From an uncultured Bifidobacteriaceae bacterium (GTDB lineage Bacteria > Actinomycetota > Actinomycetes > Actinomycetales > Bifidobacteriaceae), in contig CAMPNN010000004.1 in NCBI GenBank assembly GCA_946891915.1, forward strand, positions 1 to 60,207: DNA of 60,207 bases, given 5' to 3'. The position numbers and the translations under genes were made by a program. Numbering within the stretch: position 1 is the first letter of the stretch; each line of letters starts with the position of its first letter. The notes below the pieces were generated by a model that saw nothing but the letters and a program-made list of their open reading frames with translations, did no database searches and was not told the origin of the DNA. Of the stretch, positions 3,189 through 60,207 are shown piece after piece.

Positions 3189-3366
3189 GTGTGAGATAGG
3201 AATTACTTATCTCGCAGCGCTCCGCTCTTATACCTTACTTGGACTTAAAGGTTGCATAGTTAAGTTTAGTTTTTTACTTACTTTTTCTGCAGAAATAGTA
3301 TTCATCAAAAAGCTACTACTATCGCTCCGCTTTTATATTGCTCGACAAGCAATTCCTATCTCGCAC
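3189..3366. repeat. 178-bp MITE-like element with 23-bp inverted ends, copy A
   Basis: The left end (3189-3211, GTGTGAGATAGGAATT...) and right end (3344-3366, ...AATTCCTATCTCGCAC) are near-perfect inverted repeats. A second copy of exactly the same length lies at 26226-26403, after glnA. The interior has no credible gene. I could not find a clear target-site duplication. A small non-autonomous mobile element is the simplest reading. Confidence 0.65.
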
Positions 3367-3538
3367 TACTAGTAGAACCGCTAGTGTTTTGTGGTGTGGT
3401 AGGAGTTTCTGGTGTGGTGTGTGCAGCACGGACGCTAGTGTTCTTTAAGCAACAAGTACTCAGCGTCTGCAGAGCAATACTGTTAAAGTTCGCTAAGCAA
3501 AAAGTAATCACTGTTTGCAGAAGCATTACTGCAAAGCG
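3367..3538. repeat. Repeat block shared with 26404-26574
   Basis: Directly after the MITE-like element both copies continue with about 170 bp of highly similar sequence (ACTAGTA, CCGCTAGTGTTTTGTGGTGT, GTACTCAGCGTCTGCAGAGC, AAGTAATCACTGTT and so on). The block contains internal imperfect repeats (CGCTAGTGTT twice; AGTACTCAG and AGTAATCACT). No gene is supported in it; short open frames are not conserved between the two copies because of indels. Confidence 0.6.
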
Positions 3539-3548
3539 AGTGAAACAA

Positions 3549-3690
3549 TTGCGCGACGACCTGCTTTCGCGCAGCATTGCGCGCGCGAAAGCAACTCGGA
3601 GCGGAAACTCGCTTAAGTTGGAAGTCCAGTGGACTTCCAACGCGAGTTTCGTAGCGAGCGCGTTACCCGCGCGAGTGTCCTGGCGCTGAT
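3549..3690 (+). repeat. Multi-hairpin structured element, copy 1
   Basis: Starts GCGCGACGACCTGC and ends near GTGTCCTGGCG. Stem A: TGCTTTCGCGC (3562-3572) with its complement at 3583-3593. Stem B: GAAACTCGC (3604-3612) with GCGAGTTTC (3642-3650), enclosing a perfect hairpin TTGGAAGTCC (3618-3627) / GGACTTCCAA (3631-3640). Stem C: GCGCG (3658-3662) / CGCGC (3668-3672). Copies at 26887 and 57667 carry the same stems with different but still paired sequence. See the findings. Confidence 0.75.
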
Positions 3691-3770
3691 ATGTAACATT
3701 TGCCGGAATTTTAACTGGCTTTTGTAGCTACTTTGGTGGTTTTGTGGAACATTTGCCGGGATTGTGATTT
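3691..3770 (+). repeat. Two 53-bp repeat units (AACATTTGCCGG family)
   Basis: AACATTTGCCGG recurs with its CCGG at 3703 and 3756, exactly 53 bp apart. This is the reverse complement of the unit in the large array at 5757-6170. The rest of the gap to the helicase start (3771-3854) holds only its putative leader. Confidence 0.7.
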
Positions 3771-3854: not shown

Positions 3855-5753
3855 GTGCCGCATACTCATAATGCTGCGTCTGCAAAACTGCGAGGCGCGA
3901 AGAACACTAAATCTACTAGCGCAAAAAGTGGCGCAAGGAATACGAATACTACCAGCGCAAGGAAGTCCGCAAAAAATTCAGCAAAAAAGCGCAATCCATT
4001 TGAATATCATGGAAATCATAAAAATCACGGCGTAAAGGACAGTGCTAATCGCGCCTATAATCACTCTTCTAATCACGAGTTTAATACGCGCAGGGAGCGC
4101 AATCGTAAGGCGGAAAAGGCGCGTGAAAAGGCACGTCAGAAAGCTTTGCGTTACGAGGAGATGGCAATTCGCGACGCTGAGCAGGATTTTGCTAATCAAG
4201 AAAATAGTAAGAAAGAAAATAATAAAAAAGATTACGCTAAAAAAGATTACGCAAATCAAAACAATATTAAAAAAGATTTTGCAAAGAAAGATAAAACCTC
4301 ACAATCTTCTAAAAATTTGCAAAATTCAGTAATAATTCCGGATTCTGCAGTCGATTCTCGCGAAAATTACGAAGACGACGTAACTTTTGCGCAACTCGGT
4401 GTGCCGGAGCCGCTTGTGGAAGTGCTGCGTGCGGATGGCAAAACCACAGCCTTCCCAATTCAGCAGGCCACGCTGCCGGACTCCTTGCGAGGCGCTAATA
4501 TTCTTGGTCGCGGTCGCACTGGAAGCGGAAAAACTTTAGCATTTTCAATTCCGCTAGTTGCGCGCTTGGCGGAAAATTTCGTCGATTTAATTAAAACCGG
4601 CAAAAAGCGTAACCAAAACGAAAGTGGCGATATTCCGGCTCCTCGCGCAATGATTCTTGCGCCAACTCGCGAGCTTGTGCACCAAATTGACGACGTAATC
4701 GCACCTCTTGCTGCGGCTTACGGCATGAAAACTGTAACTGTATACGGCGGCGTGCGATACCAGCGCCAGGTATCACAGCTTAAGCAGGGTGCGCAAATTG
4801 TGCTTGCTTGCCCGGGTCGTTTGGAAGATTTGCTTCGCCAGGGTGCGTTGACTCTTGAAAAGGTGATGGTAAGCGTTCTTGACGAGGCTGACGAAATGGC
4901 AGACATGGGCTTTTTGCCAGCTGTGACGCGACTTCTTGAGCAGGTGGCGCCGGACGGGCAGCGAATGCTGTTTTCTGCAACGCTTGATAAGCAAGTTTCT
5001 ACTCTTGTGAATCGATTCCTTCCAGATGCAGTGGTTCACGCGGTAGATGATGCGGATTCGCAAGTTGACACTATGACGCATCACATTTTTGCAGTTTCTG
5101 CTGGAGATAAGTACGAGGTTTTGCGAAATCTTGCTTCTGGTTGCAAGCGTTCCATATTCTTTACGCGCACAAAGTATCAAGCGAAGAATATGGCGAAAAA
5201 GTTTGTGCAGCAGGGCATTCCTGCAGTTGATTTGCAGGGTAATTTGTCGCAAAATCAGCGCGATAGGCATTTGGCAGTATTTGCGGAAGGTTTGGTTCGC
5301 GTGCTTGTTGCGACGGATGTTGCGGCGCGAGGCATTGATATTAGTGACGTTGCGCTGGTTGTGCAAACGGAGCCGCCGGAGGATCCAAAGTCGTTCTTGC
5401 ACCGTTCTGGTCGTACCGCTCGTGCAGGCGAAGAAGGTGACGTTGTAACTTTAGTGTTGCCGAACCAAAAGCGAGCTGCGCATATGATGCTTCGTAGGGC
5501 TGGGATTCATGCGAAGGCGGAGGATGTGAATCCTGCTTCGCCGATTTTGCGCGAAATTGTGGGGGAGGCTGCTGAGCTTCAGGAAGGATGGAGTATGCCG
5601 GAGCCTGAGCAGCAGAAGCGCAAAGGGCGTGGTCGCGGGCGTGGGCGTGGTCGCGGATGGCGCGGCGGAAAAGATAACGAGCGCGGCGAGCGCGGAGGAA
5701 GAAATCGCGGACGCGGTGGGCGCAGCGAGCGCGAAAAAGCACCGCGAAAGTAG
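3855..5753 (+). CDS. DEAD-box ATP-dependent RNA helicase
   Basis: A cytoplasmic RNA helicase of about 632 residues, likely acting in ribosome assembly or RNA turnover. The first 170 residues are low-complexity, rich in Lys, Asn and Ala, and include a short Asp-Tyr-Ala-Lys tandem repeat. The core follows: Q motif around FAQLGVPEP...FPIQQATL, motif I GRTGSGKT, Ia PTREL, II DEAD, III SAT, V RGID, VI HRSGRTARAGEEG. The C-terminal tail is an RG-rich basic stretch (GRGRGRGRG...), typical of RNA-binding tails in actinobacterial homologues. I prefer the GTG start at 3855 because ACGAAAGG lies 5 bases upstream; an in-frame TTG at 3825 has no good ribosome binding site. It is probably monocistronic, flanked by repeat DNA on both sides. 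RhlE/DeaD-type subgrouping is not resolved. Confidence 0.9.
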   Translation: MPHTHNAASAKLRGAKNTKSTSAKSGARNTNTTSARKSAKNSAKKRNPFEYHGNHKNHGVKDSANRAYNHSSNHEFNTRRERNRKAEKAREKARQKALRYEEMAIRDAEQDFANQENSKKENNKKDYAKKDYANQNNIKKDFAKKDKTSQSSKNLQNSVIIPDSAVDSRENYEDDVTFAQLGVPEPLVEVLRADGKTTAFPIQQATLPDSLRGANILGRGRTGSGKTLAFSIPLVARLAENFVDLIKTGKKRNQNESGDIPAPRAMILAPTRELVHQIDDVIAPLAAAYGMKTVTVYGGVRYQRQVSQLKQGAQIVLACPGRLEDLLRQGALTLEKVMVSVLDEADEMADMGFLPAVTRLLEQVAPDGQRMLFSATLDKQVSTLVNRFLPDAVVHAVDDADSQVDTMTHHIFAVSAGDKYEVLRNLASGCKRSIFFTRTKYQAKNMAKKFVQQGIPAVDLQGNLSQNQRDRHLAVFAEGLVRVLVATDVAARGIDISDVALVVQTEPPEDPKSFLHRSGRTARAGEEGDVVTLVLPNQKRAAHMMLRRAGIHAKAEDVNPASPILREIVGEAAELQEGWSMPEPEQQKRKGRGRGRGRGRGWRGGKDNERGERGGRNRGRGGRSEREKAPRK

Positions 5754-5756
5754 CTA

Positions 5757-6170
5757 CATTTGCCGGAAATTCTCCGGCAAATGTTCCACAAAACCACCAA
5801 TTCAGCGACAAAAGACCTGTAATTCTCCGGCAAATGTTCCACAAAACCACCAATTCAGCGACAAAAGACCTGTAATTCTCCGGCAAATGTTCTATAAATT
5901 GGCTAATCTAGCGACAAAACCTGGAAAATCACCCGGCAAATGTTTCACAAAACCACCAATTCAGCGACAAAAGACCTGTAATTCTCCGGCAAATGTTCTA
6001 TAAATTGGCTAATCTAGCGACAAAACCCGGAAAATCACCCGGCAAATGTTCTATAAATTGGCTAATCTAGCGACAAAACCCGTAGAATTCCACGGCAAAT
6101 GTTCCACAAATCAGATGGTGTAGCGACAAAACCCGTAGAATTCCCCGGCAAATGTTCCACAAAACTGCCA
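5757..6170. repeat. Tandem array of eight 53-bp units
   Basis: The core CCGGCAAATGTT recurs at 5774, 5827, 5880, 5933, 5986, 6039, 6092 and 6145, a spacing of exactly 53 bp every time. Two unit variants alternate irregularly: one reads CCACAAAACCACCAATTCAG, the other CTATAAATTGGCTAATCTAG, each followed by CGACAAAA. Unlike a CRISPR array there are no unique spacers; the whole unit repeats. The first core lies in an inverted repeat with the bases before it (TTTGCCGGAAATTCTCCGGCAAA at 5759-5781), just after the helicase stop. Confidence 0.9.
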
Positions 6171-6175
6171 AAGTG

Positions 6176-23885: not shown

Positions 23886-24599
23886 ATGTTAAATAATGGC
23901 GACGAGCGCAATAATAACGAGCGCAAAAATAACGAAGCTAACGATGACGATTCAGTGCGCGCATCTTTTACGGATGCTGAATTAGATAACGCGCTTGCAG
24001 GCTTTGAAAAAGAATTCCAAGAAAACGAAAATCAAAACAACTCAAATAACGAAGATTTACTAGACGATTCCAATAGCAAAAATCAAGAAAATAATTCTAT
24101 TGAAGAAGCAATGCGCGGAATTGAAGAAGCAAATTTTGAAGAAGATTTGCAAGGCATTCTTGGCAATAAAGCAAAAGTTGCAATGATAATCACATATGTT
24201 GAGCCGGCGAAATTGCTTGCTGCTTTTTGCAAAATGGCGGATGTTAGTGCAATGTGCTTTGCTGAAGACAAGGGTTCTATTGCAATATTGAAGAATTTGG
24301 ATGGCAACGGTCCGGAAGAAAATGTGCAAAAATTCGTGGACTTCTTCCGTGGAATGGATGTAATGCTTATTACAAATCGTGCGGATAAATTAAGTGCGAA
24401 TGTGTATCAATACAACGAAAAACCGCAAGAAATAGTGGCGCCATTGGCATTATCGCTATGGTCAAGAACGGTAGAAGATCTTGCTATTTGCGTTGAAAGT
24501 GTTGATAGCGTTAAAAAACAGGGCTTAGAAATGTTCGATAGCGACGATTTGAGCAATATGCAAGCGATGAAAATATTTAACAAATACGGCAAACGGTGA
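23886..24599 (+). CDS. Uncharacterised acidic protein with a disordered N-terminus
   Basis: I do not recognise the family. About 237 residues. The first 85 are highly acidic and Asn/Glu-rich (NNNERKNNEANDDDS, ENENQNNSNNEDLLDDS), surely disordered. From about residue 90 a compact alpha/beta domain runs to the end: KVAMIITYVEPAKLLAAFCKMADVSAMCFAEDKGSIAIL, then QKFVDFFRGMDVMLITNRADKL and ALSLWSRTVEDLAICV. No catalytic motif, membrane segment or signal peptide is seen. ATG 23886 is preferred because GGAGAAAG is eight bases upstream; GTG 23868 lies before it. The position between dnaE and glnA2 suggests a conserved bifidobacterial hypothetical, but I cannot test that. Confidence 0.65.
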   Translation: MLNNGDERNNNERKNNEANDDDSVRASFTDAELDNALAGFEKEFQENENQNNSNNEDLLDDSNSKNQENNSIEEAMRGIEEANFEEDLQGILGNKAKVAMIITYVEPAKLLAAFCKMADVSAMCFAEDKGSIAILKNLDGNGPEENVQKFVDFFRGMDVMLITNRADKLSANVYQYNEKPQEIVAPLALSLWSRTVEDLAICVESVDSVKKQGLEMFDSDDLSNMQAMKIFNKYGKR

Positions 24600-24600
24600 A

Positions 24601-24712
24601 TATAGCGGAAAATATCGCAAATAAATATCGCAAATAAATATCGCAAATAAATATCGCAAATAAATATCGCAAATAAATATAGCGAATAAATATAGCGAAA
24701 AATACTGCGAAA
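24601..24712. repeat. 13-bp A/T-rich tandem repeat, about eight units
   Basis: CGCAAATAAATAT recurs with its first T-C-G-C at 24615, 24628, 24641, 24654 and 24667, then as variants TAGC at 24680 and 24693 and CTGC near 24706. It fills the leader side of glnA2 and could vary in copy number between strains. Confidence 0.8.
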
Positions 24713-24845
24713 AAAATAAGTATTGCGTAATTTCATTACAATTACGTAAATTCATTGCGTATAGCTGTAATTAGTGCAGCATAATGCGCAATAATAAATT
24801 AGAATTGCATTTAATTGCGTAAAAATGCTACCCAAGGGGCTAATT

Positions 24846-26225: not shown

Positions 26226-26403
26226 GTGTGAGATAGGAATTGCTTGTCTTGCAGCGCTACGCTCCTATACCTCATTTGGTCTAGTGGATAGGTAGTTAAG
26301 TTTAGTTTTTTACTTACTTTTTCTGCGGAAATAGTTATTTATCAAAAAGATATTACTATCGCTCCGCTTTTATATTGCTCGACAGGCAATTCCTATTTCA
26401 CAC
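26226..26403. repeat. 178-bp MITE-like element with 23-bp inverted ends, copy B
   Basis: The left end (26226-26248) and right end (26381-26403, starting GACAGGCAATTCC) are inverted repeats matching at about 21 of 23 positions. Length equals copy A at 3189-3366. Internal words such as ATCGCTCCGCTTTTATATTG are identical between copies. Confidence 0.65.
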
Positions 26404-26574
26404 TACTAGTAAAACCGCTAGTGTTTTGTGGTGTGGTAGGAGTTTCTGGTGTGGTGTGTGCAGCAGCACGGACGCTAGTGTTCGCTAATCAGAAAGTACT
26501 CAGCGTCTGCAGAGCAATACTGTTAAAGTTCACTAAGCAAAAAGTAATCACTGTTCGCAGAAGCATTACTGCAA
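26404..26574. repeat. Repeat block shared with 3367-3538
   Basis: Near-identical to the block after copy A, with small indels (an extra GCA at about 26464) that shift any open frame. The similarity stops after ACTGCAAAGC, the point where copy A continues toward hairpin copy 1. Confidence 0.6.
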
Positions 26575-26635
26575 AGCTTCAGGAACATTTGCGGGAGTTT
26601 TTTCTCCGGGTTTTGTAGTTGTTTTGACGCTGATA

Positions 26636-26876
26636 TGGAACATTTGCCGGAGATTGTTTCGACGGTTTCTTTACGTAGCGGTAAAGGAAAAATCGTTTTT
26701 TGGCGAGATTTCGTTATTTTCTTTACAGCGCTGTAAAGGAATAATCACTTTTCGGCTTAATTTCGATTTTTTCTTTACGTGACTGTAAAACAAATGTCAA
26801 TATTTCGTCAGATTTCGACAATTTCTATACACGAACGTAAAGAAACTGTCGTGCAAAGCACGACTGCAAAGCTTCA
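26636..26876. repeat. 52-bp palindrome array, left of the giant surface gene
   Basis: Four units start at 26669, 26721, 26773 and 26825 (CTTTAC or CTATAC), each 52 bp apart and each followed by a GTAAAG-like half. Bases 26729-26861 are identical to 36734-36866 beyond the surface-protein gene, in the same orientation. Confidence 0.85.
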
Positions 26877-26886
26877 GGAACATTTG

Positions 26887-27022
26887 CGCGACGACCTGCT
26901 TTCGCGCTCAGAGCGTAGCGCGCGAAAGCAATTCGGAGCGTGAGCTTGCTCAGACGGAAAGTCCAGTGGACTTTCCGTGCAAGCTCAGTAGCGAGCGCGT
27001 TAATCGCGCGAGCGTTCTGGCG
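26887..27022 (+). repeat. Multi-hairpin structured element, copy 2
   Basis: Stem A 26897-26907 with 26920-26930. Stem B GAGCTTGC (26942-26949) with GCAAGCTC (26979-26986), enclosing CGGAAAGTCC (26955-26964) / GGACTTTCCG (26968-26977). Stem C GCGCG-TTAAT-CGCGC near 26994-27008. Relative to copy 1, stem B and its hairpin changed on both sides in step. Confidence 0.75.
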
Positions 27023-27027
27023 TTGTT

Positions 27028-27175
27028 ATGGAAAATTTGCCGGAGAATATCCGGCGTTTGTAGTTACATCAGCTGTTTTGTGGAACATTTGCGGGAAAAT
27101 TCCCGGCTTTTGTAGTTGTTTTGACGCTGATGTGAAACATTTGCCGAGGAATTTTCTCCGGCTTTTGTAGTTGTT
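27028..27175 (+). repeat. Three 52/53-bp AACATTTGCCGG units
   Basis: The TTTGC core recurs near 27039, 27091 and 27143. Each unit contains a small inverted repeat around the core (CCGGAGAATATCCGG, CGGGAAAATTCCCG). Confidence 0.65.
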
Positions 27176-27195
27176 ATGGTCTTTTGTAAGTTCCG

Positions 27196-27225
27196 TTAGT
27201 AAACGGGGGGGGGTATGTGTATAAT
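27196..27225 (+). promoter_or_regulatory. Candidate phase-variable promoter with a nine-G spacer tract
   Basis: A perfect -10 TATAAT (27220-27225) is preceded by a run of nine G (27205-27213). A weak -35 TTAGTA (27196-27201) would lie 18 bp away, so the G run occupies the spacer. Gain or loss of one G would change the spacer to 19 or 17 bp. It is the nearest strong -10 to the giant surface-protein gene. Confidence 0.55.
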
Positions 27226-36496: not shown

Positions 36497-36655
36497 TTTG
36501 CGACGACCTGCTTTCGCGCTTTTGACGCTGATGTGAAACATTTGCCGGAGTTTTTTCTCCGGCTTTTGTTTTCGTTTTGGTCTTATTTGACCACATTTGC
36601 GGGAAAATTCCCGGCGTTTGTAGTTACATCAGCTGTTTTTTGGAACATTTGCGGG
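36497..36655 (+). repeat. Reduced hairpin element plus 53-bp units
   Basis: Begins GCGACGACCTGCTTTCGCGC like the multi-hairpin copies, but then jumps to TTTTGACGCTGATG, as if the hairpins had been lost. AACATTTGCCGG-type units follow, with GGGAAAATTCCCG at 36602-36614. An inverted repeat CCGGAGTTTTTTCTCCGG (36545-36562) with T-rich flanks could end the surface-protein transcript. Confidence 0.6.
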
Positions 36656-36881
36656 AGATTGTTTCGACGGTTTCTTTACGTGGCTGTAAAGGAATAATCA
36701 CTTTTCGGCGAGATTTCGTTATTTTCTTTACAACGCTGTAAAGGAATAATCACTTTTCGGCTTAATTTCGATTTTTTCTTTACGTGACTGTAAAACAAAT
36801 GTCAATATTTCGTCAGATTTCGACAATTTCTATACACGAACGTAAAGAAACTGTCGTGCAAAGCACTAGTGCAAAGCTTCT
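36656..36881. repeat. 52-bp palindrome array, right of the giant surface gene
   Basis: Direct copy of the array at 26636-26876. The stretch 36734-36866 is identical to 26729-26861 over 133 bp. CTTTAC-type cores fall 52 bp apart, and the last reads CTATACACGAACGTAAAG. Confidence 0.85.
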
Positions 36882-57578: not shown

Positions 57579-57665
57579 TGTGGAACATTTTTCGGAGATT
57601 TCCTGGCGTTTGTAGTTGCCTCAGCCTTTTTGTGGAACATTTTCCGGAGTTTTTTCTCCGGCGTT
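57579..57665 (+). repeat. 53-bp AACATTTGCCGG-type units, variant
   Basis: GGAACATTTTTCGGAG and GGAACATTTTCCGGAG lie about 53 bp apart; the second is followed by TTTTTTCTCCGGCG, giving the CCGGAG...CTCCGG inverted repeat. They lead straight into hairpin element copy 3. Confidence 0.6.
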
Positions 57666-57666
57666 T

Positions 57667-57800
57667 GCGCGACGACCTGCTTTCGCGCTTAGAGCGTAGC
57701 GCGCGAAAGCAACTCGGAGCGTGAGCTTGCTCAAGTTGAAAGCACAGTGTGCTTTCAACGCAAGCTCAGTAGCGAACGCGCTGTGCGCGTGAGCGTTGGC
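57667..57800 (+). repeat. Multi-hairpin structured element, copy 3
   Basis: Stem A 57678-57688 with 57701-57711. Stem B GAGCTTGC (57723-57730) / GCAAGCTC (57760-57767), enclosing GTTGAAAGCAC (57735-57745) / GTGCTTTCAAC (57749-57759). Stem C ACGCG-CTGTG-CGCGT near 57776-57790, where an A and a T replace the G and C of copy 2 at paired positions. Confidence 0.75.
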
Positions 57801-57900
57801 TGGTTTATGGAACATTCTCCGGAGTTTTTTCTCCGGCGTTTGTAGTTGTTTTGGCGTTGTTGTGGAACATTTGCCGGAAAAATAACCAGCAAATGTTTAC
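57801..57900 (+). repeat. 53-bp AACATTTGCCGG units downstream of copy 3
   Basis: TATGGAACATTCTCCGGAG and GTGGAACATTTGCCGGAAA lie about 53 bp apart. Confidence 0.55.
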
Positions 57901-60085: not shown

Positions 60086-60207
60086 GCACGCTCGCGCAGC
60101 GCTTTGACCGAGCTTGAAATCAACAGGATTTCAAGCTCCTTCAAAGCGTGATTTGGCTCAATTGTGAAGCACGGTGTGCTTCACATGCCAAATCAGCCGA
60201 ACGGCTA
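60086..60207 (+). repeat. Multi-hairpin structured element, divergent copy 4 (cut by the window end)
   Basis: CGCTTTGA (60100-60107) / TCAAAGCG (60141-60148) encloses GAGCTTGAAATC (60110-60121) / GATTTCAAGCTC (60127-60138), a perfect 12-bp stem. Next, GATTTGGC (60150-60157) / GCCAAATC (60187-60194) encloses TGTGAAGCAC (60163-60172) / GTGCTTCACA (60176-60185). Stem positions and linker words (GTGA before stem B, CTCA after it, TCAG after its partner) match copies 2 and 3 although the stem bases differ. The preceding 59972-60085 has no gene. Confidence 0.7.

Follow-up and report, generated by a model that had tools for sequence, protein, structure and literature searches.

The attC sites of integrons are hairpins that are recognised through their shape, the base being conserved and the tip variable, and REPs are found without target duplication. 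As far as the available text of PMC3049150 goes, the BOX elements of Streptococcus pneumoniae consist of modular hairpin blocks in high copy, with modules that can be exchanged or repeated; they insert into one another, would fold strongly if transcribed, and are enriched between convergent genes, which is argued there as a sign of parasitic spread. The same portion of that source describes MITEs as AT-rich, tightly folded, dispersed elements of less than 200 bp. REPs and BIMEs appear in the corresponding part of PMC2817692 as abundant extragenic imperfect palindromes arranged in mosaics.

The window analysed here, a 60,207-nt stretch of DNA from an uncultured Bifidobacteriaceae bacterium, carries several copies of a multi-hairpin element. 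The element is real and spans the GTDB genus Bifidobacterium, with many dispersed copies in Gardnerella, and most Bifidobacterium genomes that were read keep it at the end of a peptidase gene. The best explanation as a whole, which we hold to be just probable, is that the Gardnerella copies are members of a multi-hairpin family extending across this genus. By analogy, its spread would work most like that of BOX or REP, and the version at the peptidase gene most like a structured messenger tail.

The elements have the modularity of BOX: hairpins A and B are followed by C, D or C2, units form tandem arrays, and B is swapped between orthologous copies. They also share, within the scope of PMC3049150 given above, the high copy number, the enrichment between convergent genes, the insertion into one another and the strong predicted folding of the transcript, and they may likewise be parasitic. 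Unlike BOX, they are genus-wide, have recurrent tandem GA loops and include a version that sits at the end of one orthologous gene; target duplication was not found here, and no partner insertion sequence occurs among the domains searched. They also have no match in Rfam, which may or may not include a BOX family. At gathering thresholds Rfam returned two tRNAs only over the window and no family over the elements, and a permissive search around copy 2 gave unrelated families with a best E of 0.35. The earlier note on this DNA knew of no named family with this layout.

The tested defining features of REP/RAYT systems and of classical MITEs are absent. The abundant extragenic palindromes in mosaics recall REPs and BIMEs (PMC2817692, in the part cited), but the elements here combine several different hairpins in a fixed order on the same strand, and the RAYT-type domain Y1_Tnp (PF01797) was found in none of seven Gardnerella genomes (among 14 controls, five were positive). 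RVT_1 (PF00078) and IS110 (PF01548) were likewise found in none of the seven, with positive controls matched. Size, tight folding and dispersal are as in MITEs (PMC3049150, same portion), but the family in the window has about 60% GC, inspection revealed no long inverted repeat between its ends GCGCGACGACC and GCGAGCGT(T), and no target site duplication was detected among 47 copies (shared run 3.66 versus 3.60 shuffled; 176 of 500 shuffles as high). The shape-type hairpins with a conserved base and a variable tip resemble attC sites; unlike these, no cassette arrays were seen, and each of nine Gardnerella-type genomes has just two to three matches to PF00589.

The earlier note had reported four plus-strand copies of a single architecture, at 3549-3690, 26887-27022, 57667-57800 and 60086-60207, and its observations proved largely right. 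All four stretches are present on the plus strand and fold strongly (z -6.6, -5.4, -4.7 and -8.2 for copies 1 to 4, each against 200 dinucleotide shuffles), and the pairing changes in B and C between copies are as it described. The shared architecture holds for copies 1 to 3, which are one discrete element of 127-129 bp (family I) made of hairpin A, bulged hairpin B and hairpin C, and not for copy 4, which belongs to a second, related family (family II) rather than being a truncated copy. The restriction to the plus strand is true inside the window and not elsewhere, where both strands carry copies. The note overlooked a truncated family-I trace on the plus strand at 36500-36519, which comprises only the 5' arm of hairpin A. 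It was recovered with the 18-mer GCGACGACCTGCTTTCGC, which at up to three mismatches occurs four times in the window against 0.07 expected, namely in copies 1 to 3 and at 36500, copy 4 not being among them.

A covariance model trained on 46 copies of family I, which included copies 1 to 3 but not copy 4, delimits all three family-I copies of the window on the plus strand at about 145 bits each. Copy 1 (3551-3677) comprises hairpin A at 3551-3603, which is also supported by folding and alignment, hairpin B of subtype GAAACTCGC / GTTGGAAGTCC at 3604-3651, also by folding, and hairpin C with a GA/GA internal loop at 3652-3677, also by alignment. In copy 2 (26886-27014), hairpin A (26886-26940, with folding as additional evidence) is followed by hairpin B of subtype TGAGCTTGC / ACGGAAAGTCC at 26941-26988 and hairpin C at 26989-27014. 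Copy 3 (57667-57795) has its hairpin A at 57667-57721, inside a 52-55 nt repeat downstream of tuf, hairpin B of subtype TGAGCTTGC / GTTGAAAGCAC at 57722-57769 and, at 57770-57795, a hairpin C whose stem has A-T in place of G-C, as seen in the alignment. Copy 4 reaches 57.5 bits with structure; a model of the same alignment that ignores structure matches part of the copy at 19.3 bits. Minus-strand model matches in the window are weak, up to 34.5 bits, and are to be expected because the elements are palindromes.

Family I hairpin A is composed of an outer stem, a 2x2 loop and an inner stem, while hairpin B has an outer stem, a bulge of 4-5 nt on the 5' side, a stem of 10-11 bp and usually a three-base loop. 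Hairpin C is replaceable by D or C2, and units recur in tandem, as A-B-D of about 179 nt in L114-L117 (Gardnerella) and as ABC-ABC in L246. The units are discrete: the base-composition signal is gone immediately left of GCGC(G)ACGA (88 copies) and, among the 56 copies listed, 2-3 bases past GAGCGT on the right.

Copy 4 begins at about 60099, and its A and B come from family II: hairpin A2 lies at 60099-60147 (folding and covariance model), bulged hairpin B2, TGATTTGGC / TGTGAAGCAC, at 60148-60196 (covariance model and the set of B hairpins), and the start of hairpin C2 (GCCGAACGGCTA...) at 60196-60207, all on the plus strand, with C2 cut by the window end and complete in L121, L142 and L047. 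To its left, 60088-60097 is a family I hairpin-C arm read backwards, on the minus strand. In three other loci (L121, L075 and L189) the left side of this type of copy resembles the window, including the reversed arm, and the right side carries the other C arm and the remainder of a minus-strand family-I element, which indicates nesting in that element. From these loci, the arm at 60088-60097 is probably the remnant of a host family-I element in the window as well, where the right side falls beyond the window end. L142 has the same nesting as L121 with a different flank; family II is located within hairpin A in L047 and L140, and family I inside hairpin B of family II in L125, L155 and L113. 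Of 81 loci collected and two more, those inspected were the 40 recorded as Gardnerella or NR021/NR047, and all of these but L083 were used.

Pairing is maintained across the dispersed copies as their sequences change. Among all 44 distinct, uninterrupted hairpins of the 48 B 49-mers, 95.8% of 880 cells are paired (shuffled mean 80.6, slid at most 45.9), in a count that, like the other pairing and genome counts here, is not one of independent cases since copies and genomes are related. Two-sided changes affect 12 of 20 B pairs (shuffled 8.5; reached by 10 of 500 shuffles), and the covariation score of 0.466 compares with 0.183 shuffled and at most 0.154 slid; further pair types are not unusual (26 versus 24.7 shuffled). 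This set replaced 33 hand-picked 49-mers, which gave 98.3% pairing and the same 12 pairs, and does not count 29 distinct 50-mers and five B hairpins of other length. Every helix is 94-100% paired across the 46 whole copies (46 of 48 ABC elements were aligned). Pairing was controlled by shuffles, slides and a control arm; the list of A stems serves as a catalogue and not as a test, as its search pattern itself required pairing. The compensatory changes that the earlier note described are borne out by two-sided pairs, but a part of them comes from whole-hairpin swaps: at one orthologous site (L089 versus L162) A and C are nearly identical and the B hairpins different.

The elements are abundant in a subset of genomes. 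With copy 3, blastn gave 24-70 matches per genome in seven genomes (20-40 candidates scored in each). Run across the GTDB genus under strict filters, with 31 candidates scored per genome, the covariance model found 12 of 112 genomes rich in matches (at least 16-31 each), all of them genomes of 1.5-1.8 Mb; seven of the 12 are named Gardnerella or Bifidobacteriaceae NR021/NR047, and the other five are probably Gardnerella. When 150 candidates were scored, G111 had 45 elements and G016 had 30. Eighteen of the other 100 genomes have one to three weaker model matches and 82 have none. We rejected the idea that Gardnerella alone has the element and that the 18 weaker matches in other Bifidobacterium arose by chance, as the bulged hairpin was found in many: by a scripted rule (a loop of 3 nt, an inner stem of at least 9 bp, a 5' bulge of 3-7 nt, an outer stem) it occurs in 12 of the 18 loci, one example being TGAGCC-gttaa-GCGGAAAGCCC-agt. 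No Rfam family reaches gathering over these 18 Bifidobacterium loci. Bulged hairpins outside Gardnerella raise the odds of an RNA role and lower those of a purely mobile element.

The tip of inner B, AAGYCCNGTGGRCTT (15 bases), reaches further, into 81 of 112 genomes (the 12 Gardnerella-type genomes and 69 of the 100 others), and the same pattern read backwards, as a control, has one match across all 112. In other Bifidobacterium species the tips are often in tandem, about 112-119 nt apart. An outer stem was found by a simple rule at 19 of 50 tips in inspected loci, so the full structure is established for only some of the tips. By eye, the next hairpin in L280 and L281 again has a GC-GA-stem-GA-GC base. 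Several Bifidobacterium loci among L219-L225 have in common another hairpin after B and C as well as a conserved tail (...GAGTCTCGCC..GGCGAGTCCGTAATTGCAGG). Phages and plasmids searched with copy 3 gave no match, and two IMG/VR contigs (L277 and L278) carry an A-B form. With L144, L182 and L188, these contigs share a fully paired A base (GCGAATCGA) and similar flanks; in L277 the A-B form adjoins two large serine recombinase genes, and L277 is probably the same record as the G001 contig that gave L144. A term search of the stem-loop family survey PMC2267715, confined to the text available, found neither Bifidobacterium nor Gardnerella mentioned.

In nine of the 18 weak-match loci the structure lies directly 3' of a gene whose product ends in ...WDPMGALA and is by domain match a Peptidase_C1_2 protein, known as aminopeptidase C. 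The gene was found in 112 of 112 genomes, and its 3' region was read in 89 of them (90 reads, L309-L398, G061 twice; 23 genomes left out). A 12-nt arm formed by the last codons finds a partner downstream in 60 of the 89 genomes (at least 9 of 12 Watson-Crick pairs, no more than 120 nt downstream), compared with a mean of 7.6 in shuffled downstream sequence and with 1 of 89 for a control arm from further upstream in the gene; 29 genomes have no codon-pairing stem at this threshold. In 54 of the 60 the genome's own arm is strictly the best of 23 distinct arms, and in six it is worse. Under a stricter mixed score the stem appeared in 48 of 90 reads, against 1.9, and the own arm was best in 44 of 48; this score favoured G-T, and the repeat given above counted Watson-Crick pairs only. 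The own-arm fit indicates that, at one orthologous site, the non-coding arm changes in step with synonymous codon changes. This is in-place covariation, selected or produced by recopying. A bulged hairpin lies on the peptidase gene strand in 47 of 89 genomes and on the opposite strand in six, three genomes having both (mean at most 0.2 in shuffled 3' regions); the 12 Gardnerella-type genomes have the codon stem in 11 and, by the strict rule, the bulged hairpin in 8. The codon stem can include the stop codon, and in some species the bulge itself holds the stop (ATAA in L220).

Covarying helices of the kind seen in structured RNAs are present both in the dispersed copies, which swap modules, and at the orthologous peptidase site. 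The earlier note proposed selection or copying that keeps the pairs, with a structured RNA or a transposition substrate as examples. This proposal is well supported, and each half seems to have its case: the Gardnerella copies look like mobile elements, and the gene-end version covaries in place. The note's interpretation as a whole is supported in part.

Tandem GA pairs are stable in both RNA and DNA. GA stands opposite GA in the A base of 45 of 46 copies and in the C hairpin of 42 of 46, while inner A has GA/GA in 15 of 46 versus TC/GA in 22; on the opposite strand the GA/GA loops would read TC against TC. By RNA folding energy the sense strand comes out ahead in 42 of 46 near copies, in 19 of 24 distant copies (drawn from 35 listed) and in 39 of 47 peptidase-gene regions, as well as in the eight D-type and two family-II copies found by a pattern search. 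DNA energies, sense versus opposite, give 28 to 16 for near copies, 10 to 13 for distant copies and 32 to 14 for peptidase regions, and for module A they prefer the opposite strand by 31 to 12. Mismatches of G-T outnumber those of A-C by 33 to 12 across all helices of the 46 copies and by 27 to 14 in the codon stem. The GA/GA loops, the energies and the G-T bias together lend moderate support to folding as RNA.

Comparison of genomes gives some view of how dispersed copies sit in their sites. An empty counterpart exists for seven of 47 copies with usable flanks, which represent five distinct sites, and a sixth filled/empty pair is formed by L096/L147 against the window and L177 (L193 versus L060 was not counted, as the difference exceeds the element). 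Filled sites lack about 3, 5, 6-7, 7-8 and 9-10 bp at the five sites and 31 bp at the sixth; some lie within tandem repeats, so recombination is possible. A literature search found no paper on short-patch double illegitimate recombination. We rejected hairpin loops as the usual insertion sites of family I, since its flanks pair with one another no better than shuffled ones (4.49 versus 4.50). At L126 (G001:C1:186200-188900), two similar A-B-D elements lie in a CRISPR array, each breaking a repeat with the same left junction; by a term search, PMC3559282, a paper on CRISPR in Gardnerella, does not use the word insertion in its main text. Downstream of tuf, the window and seven genomes all carry element modules (8 of 8), which differ in all eight, and a second tuf terminator is conserved in 7 of 7 that are readable. 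The tuf downstream region of G006 (L165) also holds a probable inverted-repeat element with ends GGGTTATAGGCCAAAAAGTGTGTAAA... and a tandem array, sitting in a 52-55 nt repeat beside a family-I element.

By crude ORF calls in which tandem copies were counted, 104 of 144 B copies have genes called on both sides: 34 between convergent genes, 31 in the same direction as both, 29 opposite and 10 between divergent genes. Fifteen of the remainder have one side unknown and 25 lie inside a called ORF, some of these ORFs running over the element itself. With 31 in the same direction and 29 opposite, the dispersed copies show no bias of orientation, which lends no support to an RNA role for them.

If the genus-wide family is the correct reading, the order of first stem, bulged B with three-base loop and C would be conserved while stem sequences drift, with the sense strand folding, most likely as RNA, and selection acting on the fold. 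Dispersed copies would have spread by some process and been tolerated mainly between convergent genes, and the peptidase-gene version might be the one from which the others derive, or one kept because it serves the tail of that messenger. A more specific scenario, somewhat unlikely in our view, starts from a genus-wide structured RNA whose first stem includes the last codons and stop of the peptidase gene. In Gardnerella it would have broken loose as a mobile repeat; its fold, with the tandem G-A pairs, would be what is recognised, and the inserting enzyme, which would leave no target duplication, would belong to none of the Y1, IS110 and reverse-transcriptase families. It is unlikely that cellular function comes first, with the element acting as a structured messenger tail or small RNA and its dispersed copies serving many genes instead of being parasitic. 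Such a role would fit the in-place covariation with synonymous codons, the bias of the hairpin to the gene strand at the peptidase site (47 to 6), the preference of RNA energies for the sense strand, the excess of G-T over A-C in all helices and in the codon stem, the modules downstream of tuf in all eight genomes and the tandem arrays, but dispersed copies are indifferent to gene orientation and often truncated or interrupted, and the region upstream of them is not conserved.

The fold might alternatively be under no selection at all if template switches during replication copied one palindrome arm into the other. We consider this improbable: nearly all copies keep the bulge, the GA/GA loop recurs in the A base, inner A, C, D-type B and C2, one strand is favoured, and G-T exceeds A-C outside B. 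Arm copying would, however, also match codons to the downstream arm, and three of 144 B copies (L118, L104 and L189) do have the bulge strand duplicated into the opposite arm. Stem mismatches in B are moreover rare (49 of 2622 cells, in 133 of 144 B copies), with G-T at 19 versus A-C at 14, and 12 versus 12 without four misregistered copies. Least probable is a host DNA site, acting through cruciforms, the nucleoid or recombination, a kind of role that PMC2817692, in the part cited, reports or suggests for REPs and BIMEs. The intergenic, palindromic elements enriched between convergent genes would suit such a site, as would their clumping on the G111 chromosome, where no element occurs across 371 kb around the origin (a gap reached by 16 of 5000 random placements); the G016 copies are unclumped (1582 of 5000 placements reach the largest gap), position and subtype vary at the orthologous tuf site, and there is no replication-strand bias with the origin placed by dnaA (20 with and 18 against in G111, 15 and 11 in G016).

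Were the genus-wide family confirmed, a structured element without an Rfam match would span a major human gut and vaginal genus and would offer a rare natural case in which an orthologous RNA-like structure can be compared with dispersed, mobile-looking relatives, so that selection on folding could be separated from selfish spread. The tuf downstream region, different in all eight genomes read, would provide typing markers, and the question would arise of how hairpin repeats are moved in genomes that show no RAYT-type transposase.

Other repeats share the intergenic regions of the window. Arrays of a 52-55 nt repeat (GTGGAACATTTGCCGGA...TCCGGCGTTTGTAGTTGTTTTGG) occur on both strands at 3690-3760, 5710-6171, 26579-27200, 36530-36680 and 57579-57880; several of these repeats carry family-I elements at an identical point, and a second hairpin repeat (TTTACA..TGTAAAG) adjoins the arrays. 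Two intergenic blocks are duplicated, one at 26636-26875 and 36641-36880 (96% identity over 240 nt) and the other at 3299-3556 and 26336-26596 (90-95% over about 260 nt), which suggests recombination between repeat-rich spacers. A 3044-aa open frame at 27358-36492 matches the TIGR02543 repeat in its first 1000 residues and, from that match, probably encodes a large surface protein. The glutamine synthetase gene has a 13-nt tandem repeat (AAATATCGCAAAT) on its upstream side, at 24597-24726.
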